Part shown: in pieces, positions 50,384 through 64,000 of the stretch
Layout: every line of letters begins with the position of its first letter
How positions within the stretch are numbered: position 1 is the first letter of the stretch
Translations under genes and position numbers: made by a program
Assembly: GCF_001723355.1 (NCBI RefSeq)
Contig: NZ_LPWE01000013.1
Span: 186,001-250,000 of the forward strand
Direction: 5' to 3'
Source of the DNA: Methyloceanibacter stevinii
GTDB lineage: Bacteria > Pseudomonadota > Alphaproteobacteria > Rhizobiales > Methyloligellaceae
DNA: 64,000 bases
The notes under the pieces: model-generated
Seen by the model: only the letters and a program-made list of their open reading frames with translations
The model's database searches: none
Told to the model about the DNA's origin: nothing

Positions 50384-53082
50384 GTGAGCAAGCTTATGGT
50401 GCGTCGTTTGTTGATGAGCGCGGCTTTCGACAGTCGGTGGGCTGCCATCGTTCTAGCAGTAACACTCGCTGGAACAACGCTGTGGTCATTGCCCGCATCA
50501 TCCCAAAATGCGACGTGGCTTGCCACGCCGGGCTCAAACAATTTCAACACGGACGCCAATTGGAACCCCGCCACCGTACCAACCGGCACTGCTTTCTTCG
50601 ATACGTCAAACACCACGAGCATCAGCATTTCGGCTTCCACTACGATCGGCGGATGGACGTTCAACCCCGGCGCTTCCGCCTTCGACTTCACAAACAGCTC
50701 TGCTCTGGAATTCACTGGCGCCGGGATAAATATCAGCGGGGGAAGTGCTGCAATCACAAACACCCTAACTAGGACCGTTGATTTCTCAAATGCGAGTTCT
50801 GCCGGAAGCCTGATCATAAACAACAACCTCTCGGCATTCGTGAACTTCAACGACGATAGCACTGCCGCTTCCTCAACCATCAACAATAGCGGGCGCGTGA
50901 CGTTTCTCGACACAAGCACCGCCGGTAGTGCGACCATCAACAACAATAATGGTGTCAATTTCGTCGGCAGCAGTACGGCCGGTAATGCGACGATCATAAA
51001 CAACGCGGTAGCTGTGAATTTCAACATTGACGCCACCGCAGGCAACGCCACCATCATTAATAACAGCCTCATACGCTTTCTCGGTAATTCCACCGGGGGC
51101 CAGGCGATGTTCACCACTACATCAGGTGGCATTACGGACTTTTCAGCCAGTAGCGGCCCGCTGGGCAATAGTGAGTTGAGTGCAGGATCCGTGGCTGGAG
51201 CCGGCGATTACTTTCTCGGCGCAAACCAAGTGACTGTTGGTGGCAACGACATTTCTACTGAGGTTGACGGCATTGTCAGCGATTGTGGACCAACCGGTAC
51301 GGAATGTCAGGATACTGGAGCTACTGGGGGGTCGCTCGTTAAGACCGGCACCGGCACTCTTACCCTCTCAGGGATCAACACCTACACTGGTTCGACGGTG
51401 GTCAATCAGGGCGCACTGGTGGTCGATGGCTCGATTGTCTCGACTGTCACTGTCAACAACGGCGGCAGCCTGATGGGTATCGGCACGGTGGGTGGCGTGA
51501 CTATCGCGAATGGCGGCATCTTAGCGCCCGGCAATTCCATCGGAACGCAAACAGTCTCCGGTGATTTGACCTTTGGCGCGGGCGGGATCTTTGAAGTTGA
51601 GGTAGATGCAGCTGGCAACAGCGACCGCGTGATCGTCAACAACATGGGCGCCGTCAATCTGACGGGCGCAACGTTGCGCGTTCTTGCCCAAAACGGCAAT
51701 TACCAGCCGAGCACGGACTACGTCATAATCCAAAAGGATAGCCCCGGCGCTGTCACGGGTACGTTCGCTGATATCACGACCAACTTTGCGTTTCTGACAC
51801 CGTCGGTCGTGTATGACGGTGGTGATGGCAATGACGTGGTGCTGACGCTGTTGCGCACTGTAGTGCCGAACACGGGTGGTGGCGATAGCAGCCCGACCTT
51901 CTTGAGCTTCTGCTCGGTGGCGGAGACGCAGAACCAGTGTGATGTGGCCCATGCACTGGATAAGTTCCCAACCGACAACCCGCTGTTCCTATCTATTCTC
52001 ACCCAAACAGCAGACGGCGCACGCCAAGCCTTCGACGCGCTATCGGGCGAAGTCCATGCGACGGTTGCCGGGAGCTTGGTCGACGATAGCCGCTACGCTC
52101 GTGAAGCGGTCATGGGCCGGCTGATGCAGGCAAGCCACATGAACGGTGCGTTGGGCGCTAATGGGCCGCAAGTTGCGAGCTACAACGACGGTGCCATGCG
52201 CCTTGGCAGCAAGTTCGTCAGCGACGAGATGGCCGCTGCGCCGGAACGGCAACCGCTGGCTTTCTGGACCCAAGGTTATGGCGCCTGGGGTTCATTTGAC
52301 GGCGACGGCAATGCCGCCACGGCAGACCGCGACCTTGGCGGCTTCATATCGGGCATGGACGCGCATATCGGCGGCTCTTGGCGTGTTGGTTTGGCAACAG
52401 GCGCATCCTTCTCAGACGTAAGCGTGGATGCTCGCTACAGCGGGGCCAACACCAAGACCTATCACCTTGGTGGCTACGTCGGCGGCGGTGTCTCCGGCTT
52501 TGCACTGCGTGGCGGGGGTCTATGGGCCTGGACCGAGGTCGAGACCTCCCGCGCCGTCGTGTTCCCGAACTTCTATGAGCGTCAGAAGGCAGACTACGAC
52601 GCCGACACAGGCCAACTCTTTGGTGAAATTGCCTATCCGACAGAGATGGGTGGCGTGGAATTGGAGCCGTTCGCCGGTCTTGCATACGTGTCCGTTGAAA
52701 CCGGCGGCTTCCGCGAGAAGGGTGGTGCGCAAGCATCTCTACGCACTTCCGGCATTGACCAGGAGGTTGGCTACACCACCGTGGGTCTAAGGGCAGCCAA
52801 GACGATGATGTGGGGCGCAATGGCTGTGACCCCTCACATTGAAGCCGCATGGTACATGCGTTTAACGACGTGACGCCGGACGCATCGCTCGCCTTTGCTA
52901 CCACGGGGATCGGCTTTGCCATTGACGGCGTTCCGCTCGCCGAAGACAGCGCGATCTTGGATGCGGGCCTGGACTTTGCGATCAGCGAACGTCTGACGGC
53001 GGGCGTGTCCTACACTGGACAGTGGGCCAACAGCGTCTCCGACAATGGCGTCAAAGGCCGCCTAACCTGGCTGTTCAACTAG
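50384..53082 (+). pseudogene. Third autotransporter, island copy, frameshift in the barrel
   Basis: About 899 residues if repaired. The GTG start at 50384 follows CAGGGGGGA and encodes MSKL like the first autotransporter, supporting it over ATG 50396. The passenger is different: NATWLATPGSNNFNTDANWN, then roughly 19-residue Asn-rich repeats (STAGNATIINN), then a PATR-type strand (LVKTGTGTLTLSGINTYTGS) and APGNSIG. The linker (FCSVAETQNQC) and barrel (AFWTQGYGAWG) nearly match the other copies. At 52853-52854 (IEAAW then HAFNDVTP) one base is missing, so the last about 77 residues are out of frame. Base composition is lower in GC than the two copies at 0.4-8.1 kb. Confidence 0.85.
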
Positions 53083-54168: not shown

Positions 54169-54942
54169 CTAGTCATCGGTGCCGCGCCGATTGCCTGCGA
54201 TGACTTCGTTGATGAATGACACTGGCCAAACCAAACCGAGTTGTGCGTCTCCGGCGTCCACGGTATGTCGGCGCCCCGAATAAACGCCGATGAAGGCCGT
54301 GGCGGTGGTGGGGCCCATCGAGACGGAGCCGTTGCGGTGTAAATGATAGCCCCAGCTCCGCCTGATTACCGGGGCACCGGACATGCCAGGTCGGGAAGCC
54401 GTGTCCACGAGAAAGTAGTCCGTGGTCAGGCGAGCCAGCTCGGGCTCGGAAGCAACGCTTCCTCGTTTCCACACGGGGAACGCCGGGGGCTCGGCGCCGA
54501 AAGGATAGCCGAGGATGAAGACATCCATACCAATCTGCACGCTGAGATCATCGGAAGTCAGGGTGTTGATCGGGTGTAGGTTGAATGTCGGCTCTTCACC
54601 TGAGAAGGGAAGCGGGAGGGCGACGACATCAATCCGACGTCCAGGATGGACGAGCCACTCCGGATTGCCATCCTTATCACGAATGACGATGTCGAATTGC
54701 TTCTTTCCGAATGTCGGCGTACGGGGGTTGAAGAGGACGCGGAGCTTGTCAGGCCACGCGGCATGTGGGGAGAGGTTCTCTCCGGTCTGAAAGTTGCGGC
54801 ACGTCACTACGTGCCAATTAGTGATCAGATAATAGATTTCATCTGCCCTCCAGATAAATCCGGTTCCGCCGCCCAATAAGGTATCGTTGAAGAACTGCTC
54901 TATTGGCACGGTGGTGAGAGAGAACTGGTCAATCCTGGTCAT
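54169..54942 (-). CDS. Cytoplasmic trypsin-like serine peptidase
   Basis: A 257-residue S1-like protease without a signal peptide. The catalytic triad is His44 in LITNWHVVTCR, Asp105 in GRRIDVVALPL, and Ser188 in TASRPGMSGAPVI. GTGFIWRADEIYYLI precedes the His as in trypsin-2/HtrA-type folds; there is no PDZ domain. The start is ATG 54942. Such cytoplasmic proteases occur in conflict islands and as effectors; the neighbouring helicase-nuclease makes this attractive but unproven. The 278-bp gap to the helicase has an unrelated remnant. Confidence 0.82.
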   Translation of the reverse strand: MTRIDQFSLTTVPIEQFFNDTLLGGGTGFIWRADEIYYLITNWHVVTCRNFQTGENLSPHAAWPDKLRVLFNPRTPTFGKKQFDIVIRDKDGNPEWLVHPGRRIDVVALPLPFSGEEPTFNLHPINTLTSDDLSVQIGMDVFILGYPFGAEPPAFPVWKRGSVASEPELARLTTDYFLVDTASRPGMSGAPVIRRSWGYHLHRNGSVSMGPTTATAFIGVYSGRRHTVDAGDAQLGLVWPVSFINEVIAGNRRGTDD

Positions 54943-55220: not shown

Positions 55221-58145
55221 CTAGGCTGAGGCCATAACGCGGAGCGGCCTGAACCCGCCCCGAACCAAGTGGTCACTTGTAGCAGCGAGGACGTTTGCAA
55301 GCGTTGCGGGCAGATCCCTCTTTCGCAGACCTGGTTGGACAGCTATGAACTCGAATTCTATCTTTGCCGGAGTAGCTTCATCTAAAAGCCGCTCTAAGAA
55401 CGCGACATCGCCCTTAATGAACTGATGAGCGCCGATTCCCTGCGTAAATCGTCTGCGAATGTTTTTTAGGAGTCGCTGCTTGAGTGCCCAAGTCACGGAC
55501 TTAACCGCCTGGCCCGCAATCTCATAAACGTCGTCTACCCGATGTCCGGGCGCGGCTCCGGTTGCGCCTTTGCAGTGGTAGAATTGGATTAACAGCCTCT
55601 CGTCCTGTTCTTCTATCGCTATGAAGTCTGCGATCTCGCCGCTACCGTGATCGTAATACACAACGGTGTGGCCGCTTTCACGAAGGCGATTCCCCAAACC
55701 CTCATGGATGGAAACCATGCCATCTTTAGCTGCTCCAAACTCCCGACATATATCGACTCCAGCTGCCGCCCAGTCGATTGGTTCTATCAGCGCCTCTTCG
55801 AGTGGCGCCGCGTCGTCTGTTTGTGGCTTCAGTAGGTTGGAGCCTTGAAGCAATGCCAGATCGCTCGTGTATAAGTAGGGAATGATCCCATTCAGATAGT
55901 CAATCAAAGGCGTCGCGCTGTGCTCTTGCTCTACGAACGCCTCAGGTTCTGTGGTGCTTGCTGGCTCAAAGAAGCGATCGGTCTCGAAAGAGAAGGTCGT
56001 TTCGTATCGAAATCCGCTCTGATGCCGTAAGACCAACATGACAGTCTGTTCGTCAGATCGAGCGGCATCTACGTCAAGATCGAAATCGAGCAGTTGCGCT
56101 CTTGTCTCTCTTTCCGCGATTTTGAAGCTAATGATGGGTGTAGTGCGGTACACGCTCACCGGCCAATCTACGCCGATTATTCCGAGGGGCAGCTCACTGA
56201 TCTCCTCACCGACGTCCAAGTAGTCCAGACCGGACCCTGTTACTGGTACACGATCACTCGCAATCCGCCTCGCAAGCTTTTCACACCACGCGATAAGGCC
56301 AGGCAGCTTGGAGCTCGTATTGCTCCAAATCTTGGACGCACTGCTCAGTCCTATTGTGACAAGCCCACCATCATCAGATGCCCGCCCAAAAACATGTCCT
56401 CTATGATACAAGCGACCATCGCTTTTCAGGATAGCTTTGTCCGCATTGGAACCGGTGATGATCCGATAGGATTCGGTTGTGCTGGACGCTACGCGGTTTC
56501 TCATTCCGACATTAAAAAACTCTGGTGTGGAAAGATCGTTCAGGGCTCGATTTAGTCGTACGAGCGGCAATGGACGAGGGTTAGCTGCTTGAAATCCAGC
56601 AACGAGTTGCTCATACAAACCCTCGGACCGACGGGAAGCGCAGATGAACAACAAGCCCGTTTCCACGTGCTGATAAAAGATAAACAGGTCTGGCTGCACA
56701 ATCGACAGGCGATCGTCTGTTGTCCATCTCGGTAGACTTATCTCACGTGTGATATAGACGGCCGCATTGTGGGCCTCGCTAAAACTTTCGTAGACAGCCT
56801 GCAACGGCTGGGGAAAAACCAAGGGCGTAGTGAGATCGATCGTCTGATCGAGCTGGTACAGCTTAACGTGATAATAAGGCTCGAGCACGAAGAGCGACAG
56901 ATCCTCCAGATCCTGTGTGCTCAATTCGCCAACCTCGAATGACTCCAATACTTCACGCGTCTCGGCTTCCTCTCGGACACGAGTTGCACTCAAATTCTGG
57001 ACCATGTCCTGCCAAACGGCGCGAGTGTCGTATAAGCGCTCTGCTTCAATCTCGATTTCCGATGGGATTGCCAAAAACGTTGCCGGCCCGATATCTTCGC
57101 CAACAGTTCTGGCGAATCTGCCAATGAATTGAAGGGTCACAGCCAAAGAACGATGCGGAGAATGAATGGCAGCGATCTTAAGACTAGGAAAATTGAAGCC
57201 CTCTCCCAGCATATTGACGCATACGATCCCGTCGAGCTGACCGCCTTGTAAGTCGGCGATTACCTTATTGATGTATCGTAGCGATTTGTCACCGGTGACA
57301 ATCCGAAGCTGCAAGCCCGTATGGACTCTGTAAAGCTCCAGAAGCTCTGTCGCTCGCTTCCTGCTATCAGTTCGCACCATGACATGGTGCCTAAATCCGG
57401 CCTCGCGATCGACAGCCAACTGACGCTCAGTGGCGAGGGCGATCGCTATATCGTGATTCTCGCCACCCGTTGGAGTGACCGGCTGATACGTGATTTCTCC
57501 GAACACGCCGTCTTCAAAAGCGCGTCGAAGATCATAAGCAAAAATAAATCGGCCTCGAATCTCTTTCTGATCCTGACGAAACGGCGTTGCTGTAAAAAGC
57601 AGCCGCTTAGCCTGTGGGAAATGATCAAGAACCCGTTGCCACGTCCTAGCTGGACTGTGGTGGGCCTCGTCAACAAGAACGAGGTCAAAAAGATCCGCCG
57701 CTGGTTCGGGGATTTCAGGATACTCGGGGCTTAGACTTGGGACCGTACCGACGACCACGTCATAGTCCCGCAAAGCTTCCCATTCCTCGGCCGTTGTGAT
57801 GCGCTTCTTTGTGCTTGTTACTCGTGGCGACGGAACTGCATCTCCGACTGCACCCGCTTCACGCAATGTCGCTAGTGTACTGACTTCTTCAGCGATCTGC
57901 TCACGTACAAGCCGGCCCGGCGCAAGGATAAGCACACGAGTGGCCCGCAACACAAAGGCCGTCGAAATCAGTACCGCAGTTTTTCCGGATCCTGTCGGCA
58001 TCGTGATAATGCCAGGATCGGTTCGCATCGCGAAGTGAGATCCAGCAGCGTGGATAGCGCCCAGCTGGGCGCTTCGAAAGCCGGTTCCATCGCCGATTTT
58101 AAGCGGATAGCGGAATGAATCATAGTTGTCAGAAAAATAGCCCAT
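55221..58145 (-). CDS. DEAH-box helicase with C-terminal PD-(D/E)XK-like nuclease segment (copy 1)
   Basis: A 974-residue SF2 protein. Walker A is MPTGSGKT (49-56), then DLVLVDEAHHSPARTWQRV (motif II), LLFTATPFRQDQ (III), CVNMLGEGFNFPSLKIAAIH (V) and TLQFIGRFART (VI). It has a long middle domain of unknown kind (about 400-830). Near 834-860, GSGEIADFIAIEEQDERLL and then IQFYHCK give a D840...(Q)xxxK859 arrangement resembling PD-(D/E)XK, followed by VDDVYEIAGQAVKS and a VQPGL motif. The paralogue at 59223-62502 shares the whole layout. Probably a restriction-like or defence translocase-nuclease (inference). Base composition is lower in GC than the chromosome. Confidence 0.85.
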   Translation of the reverse strand: MGYFSDNYDSFRYPLKIGDGTGFRSAQLGAIHAAGSHFAMRTDPGIITMPTGSGKTAVLISTAFVLRATRVLILAPGRLVREQIAEEVSTLATLREAGAVGDAVPSPRVTSTKKRITTAEEWEALRDYDVVVGTVPSLSPEYPEIPEPAADLFDLVLVDEAHHSPARTWQRVLDHFPQAKRLLFTATPFRQDQKEIRGRFIFAYDLRRAFEDGVFGEITYQPVTPTGGENHDIAIALATERQLAVDREAGFRHHVMVRTDSRKRATELLELYRVHTGLQLRIVTGDKSLRYINKVIADLQGGQLDGIVCVNMLGEGFNFPSLKIAAIHSPHRSLAVTLQFIGRFARTVGEDIGPATFLAIPSEIEIEAERLYDTRAVWQDMVQNLSATRVREEAETREVLESFEVGELSTQDLEDLSLFVLEPYYHVKLYQLDQTIDLTTPLVFPQPLQAVYESFSEAHNAAVYITREISLPRWTTDDRLSIVQPDLFIFYQHVETGLLFICASRRSEGLYEQLVAGFQAANPRPLPLVRLNRALNDLSTPEFFNVGMRNRVASSTTESYRIITGSNADKAILKSDGRLYHRGHVFGRASDDGGLVTIGLSSASKIWSNTSSKLPGLIAWCEKLARRIASDRVPVTGSGLDYLDVGEEISELPLGIIGVDWPVSVYRTTPIISFKIAERETRAQLLDFDLDVDAARSDEQTVMLVLRHQSGFRYETTFSFETDRFFEPASTTEPEAFVEQEHSATPLIDYLNGIIPYLYTSDLALLQGSNLLKPQTDDAAPLEEALIEPIDWAAAGVDICREFGAAKDGMVSIHEGLGNRLRESGHTVVYYDHGSGEIADFIAIEEQDERLLIQFYHCKGATGAAPGHRVDDVYEIAGQAVKSVTWALKQRLLKNIRRRFTQGIGAHQFIKGDVAFLERLLDEATPAKIEFEFIAVQPGLRKRDLPATLANVLAATSDHLVRGGFRPLRVMASA

Positions 58146-59222: not shown

Positions 59223-62200
59223 TCAGGCGCTGCAGACCACCTCAAGCTCAATTCCAATTGTTTGCTTTAGGTAAGCGGCCGCGGCGCCCAGAACTACCGA
59301 TTGTTCTCTGGTCAGCTTCGACTTGGAAAGACCGGGTTGGACGATCAATACGGCCGGGCGTACCTCCTGGAACCTTGATGACCGTTGGAATGCGACAAGC
59401 TGTGGCGGCGCACCGTGAAGATAGCTGGTCCGCCCAGGCGTGGGCTTGTGTCGTCTTTCCCGCAGTTGCAGGTGTCTGACAAGCTCTTTGAATCTCCCAG
59501 GCCAGCGAGCAGATCTCACTGCTTGAGATGCGACTTCGACTACGTCGGCAACTCTGGCACCCGGAATCTCGCTGCCTGAGAACTTGCAATGGACGAGAAC
59601 TAGACGGATGAACCCGTCATCATGCTTCATGCAGATCAGGTCCGCGATTTCGTTGGGTCCGTCATCATCGAAGACCAAGGAGAATCCGGCATTGATGAAA
59701 TTCTGTGCCACCGACCACTGGATAGAGTCCAAGCGCCTCGCGCCGTCTTTCCAGAGGGATTCCTTGGTAATATCGACCGATGACCAGTCCCACGGCTCCA
59801 GTCGGTCGCTTGGAATCTCAACCGTGCCTGCGTCCTCCGCTCGAAGCAGGATATTTCCATCAAGCTCGGAGAGGTCGACAAACCGAATGAGTGGAGGATA
59901 GTCGCCGAAGAATGCCGCCAGATCGGATTCCTTCGAACCGATTACAATCTTCGGTGTCCCGTAGAGGCTCTCGATTGTAAAGCCTGCTCTCCCCTCTACA
60001 CGCATGCGAAACTGGCCAACCGGCGTATCCCGTTCGCCGGCTGTGACTTCAAACTCTACGACACCGTCGACGGGCTTGGCGTTTGTGAATTTTATGTCTG
60101 AGTCCAGGAAATCAAATTCGCGGCCGGGGATCCGAATTGAGATTTGATCCTCTGACCTTCCCAGCAGTTCAACAGGCCATTCGATGCTTAAGATGCCGGC
60201 GTCTGGCAACCTCTCCGCATAGTCGGGGATGAGGACGTTGGCGATAATGTCTTTGGTGCTAATGGTGGGATCAACAAGCTTCTCGCCGACGCCGTGTGCC
60301 CATTTGATGAACTTCGGGATTGTACCAGCGGCCTTGGACCAGACGCGGCCCTTGTACGAGCAGCCGATTGTGATCTGTTTGCCATCCTCCCAACCATAGC
60401 CGCTAATATTGGACTTTCGGGATCCCTTCTTCTCCGTCTCGCTTAGTGCCTGCCGGACGTCGACGCCTGTATACATGGCGAAGCTTAGATTCCGCCGTCC
60501 GTGCTTGGTGACGCCGAGATTGTTGAAGACAAGGCGCCCAATCCGGCCGAGCGGCCGAAACATCTCTTCACCGCTCATGCGTTCTTGGGCGCCAACGGCA
60601 TCAGCTAAAGCGCCGTGATCTGATGCTTTGTCGGTAGAGGCCAAATATAGCAGCCGGGTCGCCTGGTCGTGATGAAGGACAAAGAGGTGCCATTCAAGCT
60701 GTCGCATCTCTTGGCTATTCGACCATCTTACCGTCTCGCGGAGTCGAACGGCGAAGTAGAGGGTGTGCTCGGGTTCGTTAAGCCAAACGTCAACAAGCTC
60801 GTACCGATCGGGGAGCCCCTGGAAAAAGCGCTTAGGATGAAACTTAGCGCATCGGTAAAACAGCGTACTGAAAACAGGACGAAGCGAACTTGGCGATATG
60901 CGGTCCTCGCTATGGCTTTTGCTCTCGTCGAAACTCCGGGAATTCTCCAGAAACTTGAGAAACTCTGCGTGCTCATGCGCGGCCTCGGAACTGAATTCGC
61001 GCAGCAACAAGTTCCAATCCGCGTCTCGCTATACAGCCGCTCGAGGGCGTGGGAATTGAAGGCACGGCAATGTTGGCGACCACACTCGCATTGCCGAGGT
61101 CGCCATCTCCGCCGCGAGTGATGCGGCCTACGAACTGCAGGAGTACTGCTAGGCTCTGATGGAGGTCGTGAACAGCCGCAATTTTTAGCTGAGGGATATC
61201 TATGCCCTCACCAAGCATGTTCACGCAGACAACGATCTTGGCCTCTCCGCTACGCACCTTGGCGACACGCTCGTCGTTGTCCTCGATATCCGAATGAATC
61301 AGAATGGGCTTCAAGTCGGCAGCGATACGCTCGTAAATCTCGCAGACTGACTCCGCACGGTCCTTCCGGCCGCATCGCGCAATAACCTGATGGGGGAGTC
61401 CCTTCGCGATATCTTCACGGAGTCGGCCGACCGCGACTTTGGCAATTTCTTCGTCGCCGGCATCGAAATCCACTTTGTAGACCGGCAGGAATTCGATTTT
61501 CTGAAAGTACCCATCCGCCTGCGCTTGCTTTAGTGGATAGGAGTAGATGACCTTGCCATCCACCAATTCGCCATCGCCGCGAAACGGCGTGGCCGTGAAT
61601 TGCAGGACCTTCTTGTCATTGAAAGACTGCCTCAGTATCTGCCATGTCGATGCCTTTACGTGATGTGCCTCATCGACAACGAGCACGTCCATGATGCCCG
61701 CAATTCTATCCAGGAAGTTCGTGGCTGTGCCGCCCGAGAGGGATGAGACGACACCAACGACGACATTGCAGTCCTTGAACAGTTGCAGCTCTGCCTCGTT
61801 CTTGGGCCGGCGGCGGGCAATGCCAACAACTGGATTGGCAATCGAATTTGGGACGACACCAAGCGATCTCAGTTTCCCGAGACTGCGGAATTTTCCAGCT
61901 ATCTGCGACCGGAGGGCTTTGCTGGGAACCGCCACGAGCAGCTTGTTGATCCGCTGCGCAACGAGAATGGCCAACATCGTTTCAGTTTTGCCCGTCCCGG
62001 TCGGCATCACAATTGTTGCCGGCGTACTGGACAGACTCCAATGCGCGCCAACCGCATGAAGCGCTCCAAGTTGTGGTGCCCTCAACCCCTCCTCGGGAAG
62101 GCCTGTGTCGTCTCTTGAGTGATAACTGAAACTGTCTTTCCAAGTTGCCGAGACGCTCTTTGTTCCCAGGGTCTGCTTGGCTCGTTCAATCTCGACATGG

Positions 62201-62502
62201 CTCAGCCATTCGTACACGCCGGGGCAGGTGCCTCGAAGGATTCCGTCGATGCCCACTGGCAATGCGAGCTTCTTTCGCTCTGTGACGATTATGCGCTCTC
62301 CGTTGCTGAGCAGCAGGCAGCGTTCTTTGACTCTCGGAGAGACCTGAATCTCATACTCCCGTTCAACGCACGCCTTTTCACCAGGCCGCAGTAGCTGAAC
62401 GGCTTCTCCGATGTCGTACTTGATGGGTCCGAGTACGAGCTCGGGAAGGTCAATCTCAAGCCTGTCCAGCGCGAGGCGCATCTGCCCGGATCCGCTTACC
62501 AT
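59223..62502 (-). CDS. DEAH-box helicase with C-terminal PD-(D/E)XK-like segment (copy 2), frame-shifted
   Basis: About 1093 residues if repaired, a paralogue of the 55221-58145 protein. ATG 62502 overlaps the DUF2235 stop by 7 nt (ATGGTAA). An extra N-terminal about 110 residues precede MPTGTGKT; then VLVVDEAHHVKASTWQIL, LQFTATPFRGDG, CVNMLGEGIDIPQLKIAAVH and LLQFVGRITR. Near 61075-61010 two single bases seem missing: VANIAVP is followed in a second frame by FNSHALERLYSETR and in a third by DWNLLLREFSSEAAHEH. The C-terminal NEIADLICMKHDDGFIRLV then LVHCK matches copy 1, as do VADVVEVASQAVRS and IVQPGLSKSKL. Probable DNA translocase-nuclease. Confidence 0.82.
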
Positions 62503-63545
62503 GGTTCGGTCCTGTGTTTTTGCGGCAGGTTTTCCGGCATGTAGGTTCCGGCTTTGATGCGATCGAAGACCGATTGATGAATGAGCGAGTTCTCGGGGAT
62601 CGAGCGCGACGCGCCACCGTAAATTTTGAGGCGGAGTTTCCATTTGTCTTCCGGATCCCGGTAGGTCCGCGGCAGATACTCGACAGGCCACCACCAACCG
62701 GTCAACGAGTCATGTAGTCGGGGGCTGCCTATGGACGGTCGGCCGAGCCCCACTAGTCGCTGCAAACGAGCTTGATCGACCAGTAGATTGGGCATTGCCT
62801 CCCTGATCATCCAGTCCAATGCGATATTTGATGGACCGGACTCACTCTCAGAATGTCCCCCGCCGACGTCTGAATGGGTGCCGGCAAACCAGACCTGCTT
62901 GATGTCCTGGAAGCTTCGGCCTTTGCCCCATAGATGCTGACGAAAAAATGCTCTGCGCTCATCGATCGCAATTGCGTGGCGTACCGTCTTGACGATTGCG
63001 TTATTGGTCGTGAAGGGGAGGCTTACCGGGTCGTAAACCCAGCCCACTGACTTCACTGTGTCCCAAAGGCCCAGGAAGTGAATTGAACAGCGCCTAGAGA
63101 AGGCTTTGCGAAATCCGCGATAAATCTCCGGCCGCATCTCGTAACGAAACATCTTGGATGCATAGGGTACGAGGTTGTCGTTACCCGTGTTCAGCAATCC
63201 GCACTTTGCGATTAGGGCCGCAATACCCCTGGCAGTGTATGCCCCGCGACTAAATCCAAAAATGAAGACCCTGTCGCCATCCTCAAAGTAGTCCATGAGG
63301 TAAGTGTATGCTTCTTCGATATCGCGGAGAATTCCAGCGCCAAAGGCGAGGCCCGCTGCTTTGCTCAGGCGCTTGCCCAATCGCGACCAGACCGTCGGAG
63401 CGCTGAGGGTTCCCACGCCTGGATCATAGTACGTGGCTTGCCCATCGCTCTTTTCCAGGACCGAGTAGAGCTTGAGCACGTTGGTGCTGCGCTCTCCGTA
63501 TTCGTTGCTCGTGCCGTCGCAACAAAGAACAATGTTTTTCGCCAC
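62496..63545 (-). CDS. DUF2235 alpha/beta-hydrolase (Tle1/phospholipase-like)
   Basis: A 349-residue hydrolase. It starts MAKNIVLCCDGTSNEYGERS (DUF2235 hallmark) and has the nucleophile elbow IFGFSRGAYTARG with Ser99, then IHFLGLWDTVKSVGWVYDP, and AGTHSDVGGGHSES carrying the expected acid/His positions. There is no signal peptide. The family includes type VI lipase effectors (Tle1) and uncharacterised cytosolic enzymes. GTG 63545 is chosen because the motif starts there; AGGAGG lies about 13 nt upstream, a long spacing. It overlaps the downstream helicase start, so the two are translationally coupled. Confidence 0.85.
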   Translation of the reverse strand: MAKNIVLCCDGTSNEYGERSTNVLKLYSVLEKSDGQATYYDPGVGTLSAPTVWSRLGKRLSKAAGLAFGAGILRDIEEAYTYLMDYFEDGDRVFIFGFSRGAYTARGIAALIAKCGLLNTGNDNLVPYASKMFRYEMRPEIYRGFRKAFSRRCSIHFLGLWDTVKSVGWVYDPVSLPFTTNNAIVKTVRHAIAIDERRAFFRQHLWGKGRSFQDIKQVWFAGTHSDVGGGHSESESGPSNIALDWMIREAMPNLLVDQARLQRLVGLGRPSIGSPRLHDSLTGWWWPVEYLPRTYRDPEDKWKLRLKIYGGASRSIPENSLIHQSVFDRIKAGTYMPENLPQKHRTEPW

Positions 63546-63642
63546 GCCCCGCCGATCGCCTCCTGCCGGATGTCGCTGTCGCAACTTTTGCGGTATTATT
63601 ATCAGACTACACGCAAATTGATAACGGCCCGGGACCATTTCA

Positions 63643-64000
63643 ATGGCAATAACTTGCGAAGACTGCAGTCCCTATCTGTCTGTAACGTTGCTTCGTGGCT
63701 CTGGTGGTCAGACTCCCACGTCGGCTCAGCTGCGGACCGCGATGCGCAAGGTTCTCAAGTTGGCGGCAGCGGCACCCAATAGCCGTGTCTCTTCTCGAGA
63801 CTTTAAGATGCCCGCCGCTCCGAAAGGTCTGCCGGACGGATTGGATGTCTCCTGGTTTCACTATGAGGAGCGACGATCCCCATCCTGGTGCCCTGGCGCC
63901 AACCTTGAGGATCGCACCCACCAGGCGGTCTATATCTTCCGGAAAGCGGACCTGGTCGCAATTTGCTTTTCCGATCCTGCCGCCCGCAATACGGCTGTGC
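63643..64000 (+). CDS. Unrecognised protein, N-terminal part, cut by window edge
   Basis: ATG 63643 opens 119 codons to the window end without a stop, divergent from the DUF2235 gene across about 97 bp. It begins MAITCEDCSPYLSVTLLRGS, with helix-rich RTAMRKVLKLAAAAPNSRVS and later LDVSWFHYEERRSPSWCPGA and AVYIFRKADLVAICFSDPAA. Two early cysteines (CEDC) and a W-C pair could bind metal. I do not know the family. No strong ribosome binding site was seen. Its position suggests it belongs to the same module. Confidence 0.5.
   Translation, partial: MAITCEDCSPYLSVTLLRGSGGQTPTSAQLRTAMRKVLKLAAAAPNSRVSSRDFKMPAAPKGLPDGLDVSWFHYEERRSPSWCPGANLEDRTHQAVYIFRKADLVAICFSDPAARNTAV

Follow-up and report, generated by a model that had tools for sequence, protein, structure and literature searches.

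In this study we analyzed a window of 64,000 nucleotides from Methyloceanibacter stevinii (contig NZ_LPWE01000013.1, positions 186,001 to 250,000), in which the stop codon of a DUF2235 hydrolase gene overlaps the start of a helicase gene. An initial annotation had regarded the two as a translationally coupled module and a candidate new defence system. Our results indicate that the helicase and DUF2235 genes look like chance company and not like a new two-gene system. Probably, the site is an island of low guanine-plus-cytosine (GC) content in which an intact, exchangeable, stand-alone hydrolase gene lies beside an autonomous helicase-nuclease gene that has no fixed partner and is now broken.

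The neighborhoods of helicase relatives carry this conclusion. The species-genome collection contained at least 461 stretches with a relative, and the best 80, ranked by likeness to a Caulobacter plasmid query, were kept; their flanks reached at least 3 kb on both sides in 56 of the 80 and at least 9 kb in 45. DUF2235 was found in the flanks of only one of the 80 loci, that of Mesorhizobium jarvisii (L054). There it is the third gene of a cluster of protease-like, metallo-β-lactamase (MBL)-like and DUF2235 genes, and the helicase gene follows after about 150 bp. The same cluster occurs in Rhizobium phaseoli and Agrobacterium vitis. The largest set of similar neighbor genes was shared by 12 of the 80 loci, on varied strands and in varied places. 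Among plasmids, the C-terminal half of the helicase matched 62 records at an expect value (E) of 1e-10 and DUF2235 matched 65 records at E 1e-20, the best 60 being taken in each case. Nine records, representing five distinct plasmids, had both among the matches listed, and the genes lay within 3 kb of each other on three of these five. The helicase gene comes first and is 12 bp from DUF2235 in Roseovarius (L008), comes first at a distance of 1.0 kb in Methylocystis (L009), and lies on the opposite strand, 2.6 kb away, in A. vitis (L010).

The phylogeny and the genomes of the class agree with this picture. We built a FastTree phylogeny with local support of 44 C-terminal halves, which came from 34 of the 80 genome loci, from the plasmid copies and from both copies in the window. 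In this tree, the helicases of the window, L054, L008, L009 and L010 stand apart, those of the window and L054 falling within a larger group of 16 rows. The nearest tree rows of the DUF2235-linked helicases (L065, L011, L099, L127 and L164) had no DUF2235 in the stretches examined. Of 385 genomes of the class, at least 32 had DUF2235 (E 1e-20) and at least four had the helicase C-terminal half (E 1e-10; at most three candidates scored per genome), the genome of M. stevinii being counted in both. Apart from it, only G022 had both families among the candidates scored, more than 1 Mb apart, and its helicase match covers just a short part of the nuclease-like end. Because DUF2235 accompanied 1 of 80 helicase loci, the linked helicases are scattered in the tree and G022 was the only further class genome with both families, homologues of the two genes must be described as rarely adjacent, the outcome that the initial annotation had itself named as counting against the module. 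Gene order and spacing also vary and the helicase of the window is broken, and the coupled module as it had been proposed is not supported.

The hydrolase gene itself is well preserved. It occupies positions 62496-63545 on the minus strand and encodes a Tle1-like serine hydrolase of 349 amino acids (aa); the GTG at 63545 is the likely start, and the frame is open up to 63638. PF09994 (T6SS_Tle1-like_cat in Pfam) was matched over its full 287 positions at 62496-63638 on the minus strand (E 1.2e-76). The reading frame is intact and this is the single PF09994 match in the genome. The nucleophile Ser99 in GFSRG (residues 97-101) is invariant in an alignment of 18 sequences including that of the window, as are D162 and H224-x-D226 of a GxHxD motif. 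The lipase-like hydrolase of the initial annotation is thus confirmed. The overlap with the first ATG of the helicase frame was also seen as described (ATGGTAA, 62502 to 62496, minus strand). In a tblastn alignment, residue 13 of an intact relative of the helicase, L065, falls at 62454, so the N-terminus of this relative fits a helicase start near the ATGGTAA. Although real, the overlap is in all likelihood incidental.

The helicase gene is broken as sequenced. The frame that begins with the ATG at 62502 stops at 60973, and this half (60973-62502, minus strand; 59% identical to L065) contains an N-terminal region and a superfamily 2 (SF2) motor with Pfam matches to ResIII (E 1.2e-21) and Helicase_C (E 2.3e-11). 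The C-terminal half, with the middle domain and the nuclease-like end, lies in a different frame at 61010-59223 on the same strand and is 62% identical to L065. We used as references the intact relatives L065, from a planctomycete bin, and L063, from a Hyphomonadaceae bin; tblastn alignment and three-frame translation placed two frame changes within 61025-61054, which divide the gene into two open reading frames (ORFs). Both halves keep 55-63% identity to L065 and L063. Since the C-terminal half lies in one open frame in 78 of the 80 relatives, intact copies are the rule.

In the C-terminal half, the motif region at 59523-59762 (minus strand) comprises E417, D448-D450, E454, D457, H474-x-K476 and Q496, numbered in the ORF 59223-61010. 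E417, Q431, E454, D457, H474, K476 and Q496 are invariant and D448-D450 nearly invariant in 60 aligned sequences. Our reading is that this half is a putative PD-(D/E)XK-like nuclease in which His replaces the usual acidic residue before the Lys. Of the SF2 helicase with a C-terminal PD-(D/E)XK-like segment that had been predicted, the motor and the conserved segment were therefore recovered, and the single reading frame, which is split at 61025-61054, was not. No family in Pfam, PADLOC, NCBIfam or PHROGs matched the C-terminal half; its best match in PDB had an E of 0.35, and its profile matched nothing there up to E 1. Judged from its sequences, the helicase-nuclease is a widespread and uncatalogued single-chain family in which an SF2 motor is joined to a middle domain and to a predicted HxK-type PD-(D/E)XK-like nuclease. 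Relatives were also present in bins labeled archaea or Patescibacteria (L093, L094, L057, L066 and L097), and L066 (58%) is among the nearest to the helicase copy of the window. These occurrences would reflect either horizontal transfer or mis-binning.

The neighbors of DUF2235 on plasmids are diverse. A minimum of 37.5% identity and 80% coverage was required, which left 28 plasmid rows. These correspond to 18 distinct plasmids, all of which were fetched; duplicates of one organism were counted once, as were two Bradyrhizobium plasmids with equal match values. A gene for a 620-aa protein is located directly downstream of DUF2235 on five of the 18 (L153, L155, L156, L161 and L170). Septu PtuAB genes lie beside it on another five, on the same strand in L009, L014 and L154 and on the other strand in L008 and L152. 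These were assigned by PADLOC in L014, L154 and L008 (PtuA matches at E 4e-109, 9e-174 and 8e-251) and by BLAST in L009 and L152. MBL/protease genes were the neighbors on four plasmids (L010, L013, L157 and L159) and a caspase-like gene on one (L015); three (L158, L160 and L162) had none of the neighbor types tested. The helicase family was within 3 kb on three of the 18 (L008, L009 and L010). Several plasmids also carry genes of the cyclic oligonucleotide-based antiphage signaling system (CBASS) near DUF2235, namely a cyclase, nucleotidyltransferase or SAVED gene.

The gene that follows DUF2235 is exchangeable, as is directly evident from two Rhizobium plasmids. L014 (strain CIAT894; L014:1-4600) and L161 (strain Khangiran2; L161:3771-8093) are 88.7% identical over 2192 nt that span a SAVED-HNH gene and DUF2235, and their DUF2235 proteins are 91.7% identical. 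The homology stops sharply, 34 nt before the end of DUF2235 in L014 and 25 nt before it in L161. Past this point L014 continues with PtuAB and L161 with the 620-aa gene. The cluster of protease-like, MBL-LmuA-like and DUF2235 genes is found at L010:13501-17647, L157:2147-6116 and L054:5640-9791, with 4-bp overlaps in L010 and L157, and we know of no named system of this composition. In a Methylorubrum plasmid (L159), a subtilase and an MBL gene come after DUF2235. In a Bradyrhizobium plasmid (L015:8055-11815), DUF2235 is immediately followed by a caspase-like protease and a 503-aa protein of unknown function. The consulted portion of one report describes immune systems that exchange death effectors, phospholipases included, in CARD-NLR variants; DUF2235 is not named in that portion (PMC13236601). 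It is conceivable, although we hold it only tentatively, that DUF2235 lipases serve bacterial immunity in general as an exchangeable killing arm, joined to or kept beside unrelated sensors (those of CBASS, Septu, the MBL-protease and caspase-like types, as well as the helicase-nuclease or its 620-aa relative), with downstream modules swapped at the 3' end.

The neighbor of DUF2235 on its other side in the window is a divergent gene for a 629-aa protein, which had been overlooked in the initial annotation. It begins at 63643 on the plus strand and runs through the end of the window to 65532 (L006:15643-17532). The starts of the two genes are separated by 97 bp (63546-63642), with a promoter-like match at 63624-63595 on the minus strand; the whole region has four such matches against 3.1 in shuffles. 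The protein lacks a helicase motor but is a homologue of the helicase's other half, the C-terminal one, with which hhalign aligned it over 435 columns (95.9%, E 6.3e-9) and whose pattern E...AD...HxK...Q it carries. Its identity with the 620-aa proteins after DUF2235 on the five plasmids is 49.5-52%, and PADLOC gave a partial match to the candidate PDC-S71 (E 2.1e-8). Among the 385 class genomes it matched only its own, at most three candidates being scored in each. Relatives were present in 20 plasmid records. Eight rows, from six plasmids, are close and full-length, and one more, from S. medicae (L165), is close but truncated. Five rows are distant, and four of these were fetched; the other six are short partial matches and do not enter the neighbor count. 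DUF2235 is directly upstream on five of the seven distinct plasmids with close relatives. However, DUF2235 is split over two frames in L170, and an IS3 element interrupts the 620-aa gene in Agrobacterium LN-1 (L156:6190-9388). The Roseibium plasmid L164 is without DUF2235, and L165, in which the 620-aa gene has lost its N-terminus, shows none. All four fetched distant relatives likewise had no DUF2235. Because the DUF2235 of the window belongs to a different tree branch from those of L153, L155 and L161, the two genes are paired in roughly two independent settings. On L164 (2804-15377) we observed a helicase-nuclease, a PhoD-family phosphatase, an unknown gene and the 620-aa gene, followed by a set of nucleotidyltransferase, ThiF, Mov34/MPN and SAVED genes. 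Another hydrolase gene stands near the usual position of DUF2235 there.

Several observations weigh against the reading of an exchangeable defence-island hydrolase beside an autonomous helicase-nuclease. The helicase lies near DUF2235 at five places (the window, L008, L009, L054 and L010); the strand is the same at four, and the distance at one is only 12 bp. Since both families are uncommon, genes scattered independently would be expected to meet less often than this. The 80 helicase loci were the best of a longer list, picked by likeness to the Caulobacter plasmid copy. For the link of DUF2235 to the 620-aa gene there are only about two independent cases, namely a single plasmid lineage and the window. 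In addition, the 16 class-genome DUF2235 loci examined, out of 31 others, all lacked the defence neighbors tested, which speaks against a general link to defence; the defence association of DUF2235 is seen on plasmids only. Clustering in defence islands would be the simplest candidate cause of the five co-locations. A true two-gene module, in which the helicase-nuclease would sense or process DNA and release the translationally coupled hydrolase, could account for the ATGGTAA overlap and for the same-strand neighbors at 12 bp, 1.0 kb and about 150 bp in L008, L009 and L054. We nevertheless consider it improbable and rejected it on the basis of the 80-locus survey and the helicase tree. In addition to the single DUF2235 among 80 loci, the gene order is reversed between sites, the closest tree relatives of each linked helicase have no DUF2235 in the flanks examined, and the window's helicase is broken. 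Furthermore, the DUF2235 of L054 belongs to a three-gene cluster that is present in L157 without a helicase match in the stretch fetched.

It is less improbable, but still unlikely, that DUF2235 forms a two-gene unit with the divergent 629-aa protein, the latter sensing foreign DNA and the hydrolase serving as the killing arm. The five of seven plasmids with DUF2235 directly upstream speak for such a unit, and the separate branches suggest that the pairing arose or was kept twice. However, the cases on plasmids seem to belong to a single lineage, judging from the three of the five that are in the tree and from a fourth that is 88.8% identical to one of them at the DNA level; the fifth was not placed. 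The split DUF2235 of L170, the transposon-cut gene of L156 and the absence of DUF2235 from L164, L165 and all four distant relatives also argue against it, and the orientation differs in the window. The frame break, for its part, might be a sequencing or assembly error in a helicase that is intact in the organism. This has a modest chance of being correct, since no further break was seen and both halves remain 55-63% identical to their relatives with the motifs kept; against it, two separate frame changes occur within 30 bases. Finally, DUF2235 could be a type VI secretion effector (Tle1) directed at other bacteria, as its Pfam family is named after such effectors. The genome has no VipB sheath gene (PF05943), for which an E. 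coli control was positive, while VgrG and immunity genes were not searched for. From the absence of PF05943 this role was judged unlikely, to the point of being hardly credible.

The GC content of the window is 0.60-0.65 at 40-49 kb, 0.56-0.59 between, and 0.52-0.57 at 53-64 kb. A trypsin-like protease at 54169-54942 (minus strand) matches the PADLOC candidate PDC-S45 (E 1.6e-18). From the drop in GC and the neighboring genes, this protein included, the site appears to belong to a defence island of low GC content. The window also holds an intact 974-aa paralogue of the helicase-nuclease (55221-58145, minus strand) that has no long N-terminal region and, like the 629-aa gene, was absent from the initial annotation. 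It is 48.5% identical to its nearest plasmid relative, from Bradyrhizobium (L012), and no DUF2235 is annotated in the L012 stretch. On plasmids, relatives of the DUF2235 and helicase genes often have CBASS, Septu, restriction-modification, AbiE or HamA genes in their vicinity, and the conflict role that had been suggested for this neighborhood is supported to that extent. Elsewhere in the window, an 829-aa protein at 50384-52873 (plus strand) has repeats and a barrel-like end and may be an autotransporter.

How these genes might act can be outlined. An intact helicase-nuclease would move along invading DNA and cut it without a methylase partner. Given its family, the DUF2235 hydrolase is a plausible lipid-attacking effector, as the initial annotation had envisaged. 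Once triggered, the DUF2235 hydrolase would attack membrane lipids and stop the infected cell. If it has a trigger at this site, the 629-aa protein, a putative motor-less sensor or nuclease half, is a better candidate than the broken helicase, and the ATGGTAA overlap would couple only the translation of a broken frame. That the pair probably does not form a system is useful to know, because it spares further effort. Two parts deserve to be followed. One is the DUF2235 gene with its exchangeable neighbors; the other is the helicase-nuclease family, which has a motor-less relative, is spread over many bacterial phyla and is named neither in the 2023 defence library nor in NCBIfam. If the proposed role is true, a lipase family of type VI warfare beside many immune modules would widen the list of membrane-attacking immune effectors.

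Comparison with known defence models, which the initial annotation had left as a check, showed that the pair fits no PADLOC system at full length. In the 2023 models no full-length match was obtained for DUF2235, the helicase (motor only) or the C-terminal half, and DUF2235 had zero matches of any kind. DUF2235 also had no match in 50,697 phage records, and scans of viral contigs with single proteins gave no confirmed relative of DUF2235 or the 629-aa protein. Among the open-licence papers listed, judged by titles and the beginnings of abstracts, neither a link of DUF2235 to phage defence nor a direct match for Septu or Tle1 with lipase effectors was found.

The helicase-nuclease resembles the restriction-type SF2 proteins (type III Res, type I HsdR, type IV and PbeA), which combine a ResIII-type motor and a nuclease-like domain in one chain, as here. 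In PADLOC it matched PbeA best (E 1.4e-16) and also had matches to type IV and type I models, all in the motor part only, and its PHROGs matches were likewise limited to the motor. The 974-aa paralogue matched PDB 7clg, which we take to be SauUSI, with an E of 3.3e-12. The helicase-nuclease differs from the restriction-type helicases in that NCBIfam scores are far under the cut-offs (best 46 bits against 600). As type I HsdR it failed, the helicase half scoring 15-33 bits against cut-offs of 285-729. The motor of type III Res is present, but no Mod methylase was detected among the seven proteins tested at 53-64 kb, and no partner gene is conserved across the 80 helicase loci. Hachiman (HamAB; PMC12278908) likewise combines a helicase and a nuclease, which is an analogy in mode of action only, and uses two chains where the family of the window has one. 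A fused Hachiman was rejected, as hhalign of the C-terminal half gave probabilities of 0.4 against one HamA and 0.1 against five HamA, with 0.2 for a negative control.

The hydrolase has its own set of comparisons. Septu PtuAB is a neighbor of DUF2235 on plasmids but is not seen beside the DUF2235 of the window. CBASS is a neighbor on several plasmids, but the genome of M. stevinii gave no SAVED match, a weak negative because the positive control was also silent. The consulted part of one paper proposes DUF2235 domains as lipid-acting toxins of polymorphic toxin systems, under the name 'Tox-ABhydrolase-1' (PMC3482391). With the Tle1/DUF2235 phospholipases, the protein of the window has the whole catalytic domain in common, and the serine, Asp and GxHxD motifs are alike. 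It differs from Tle1 in being short and stand-alone, in lying in an island, and in belonging to a genome without a type VI sheath gene.

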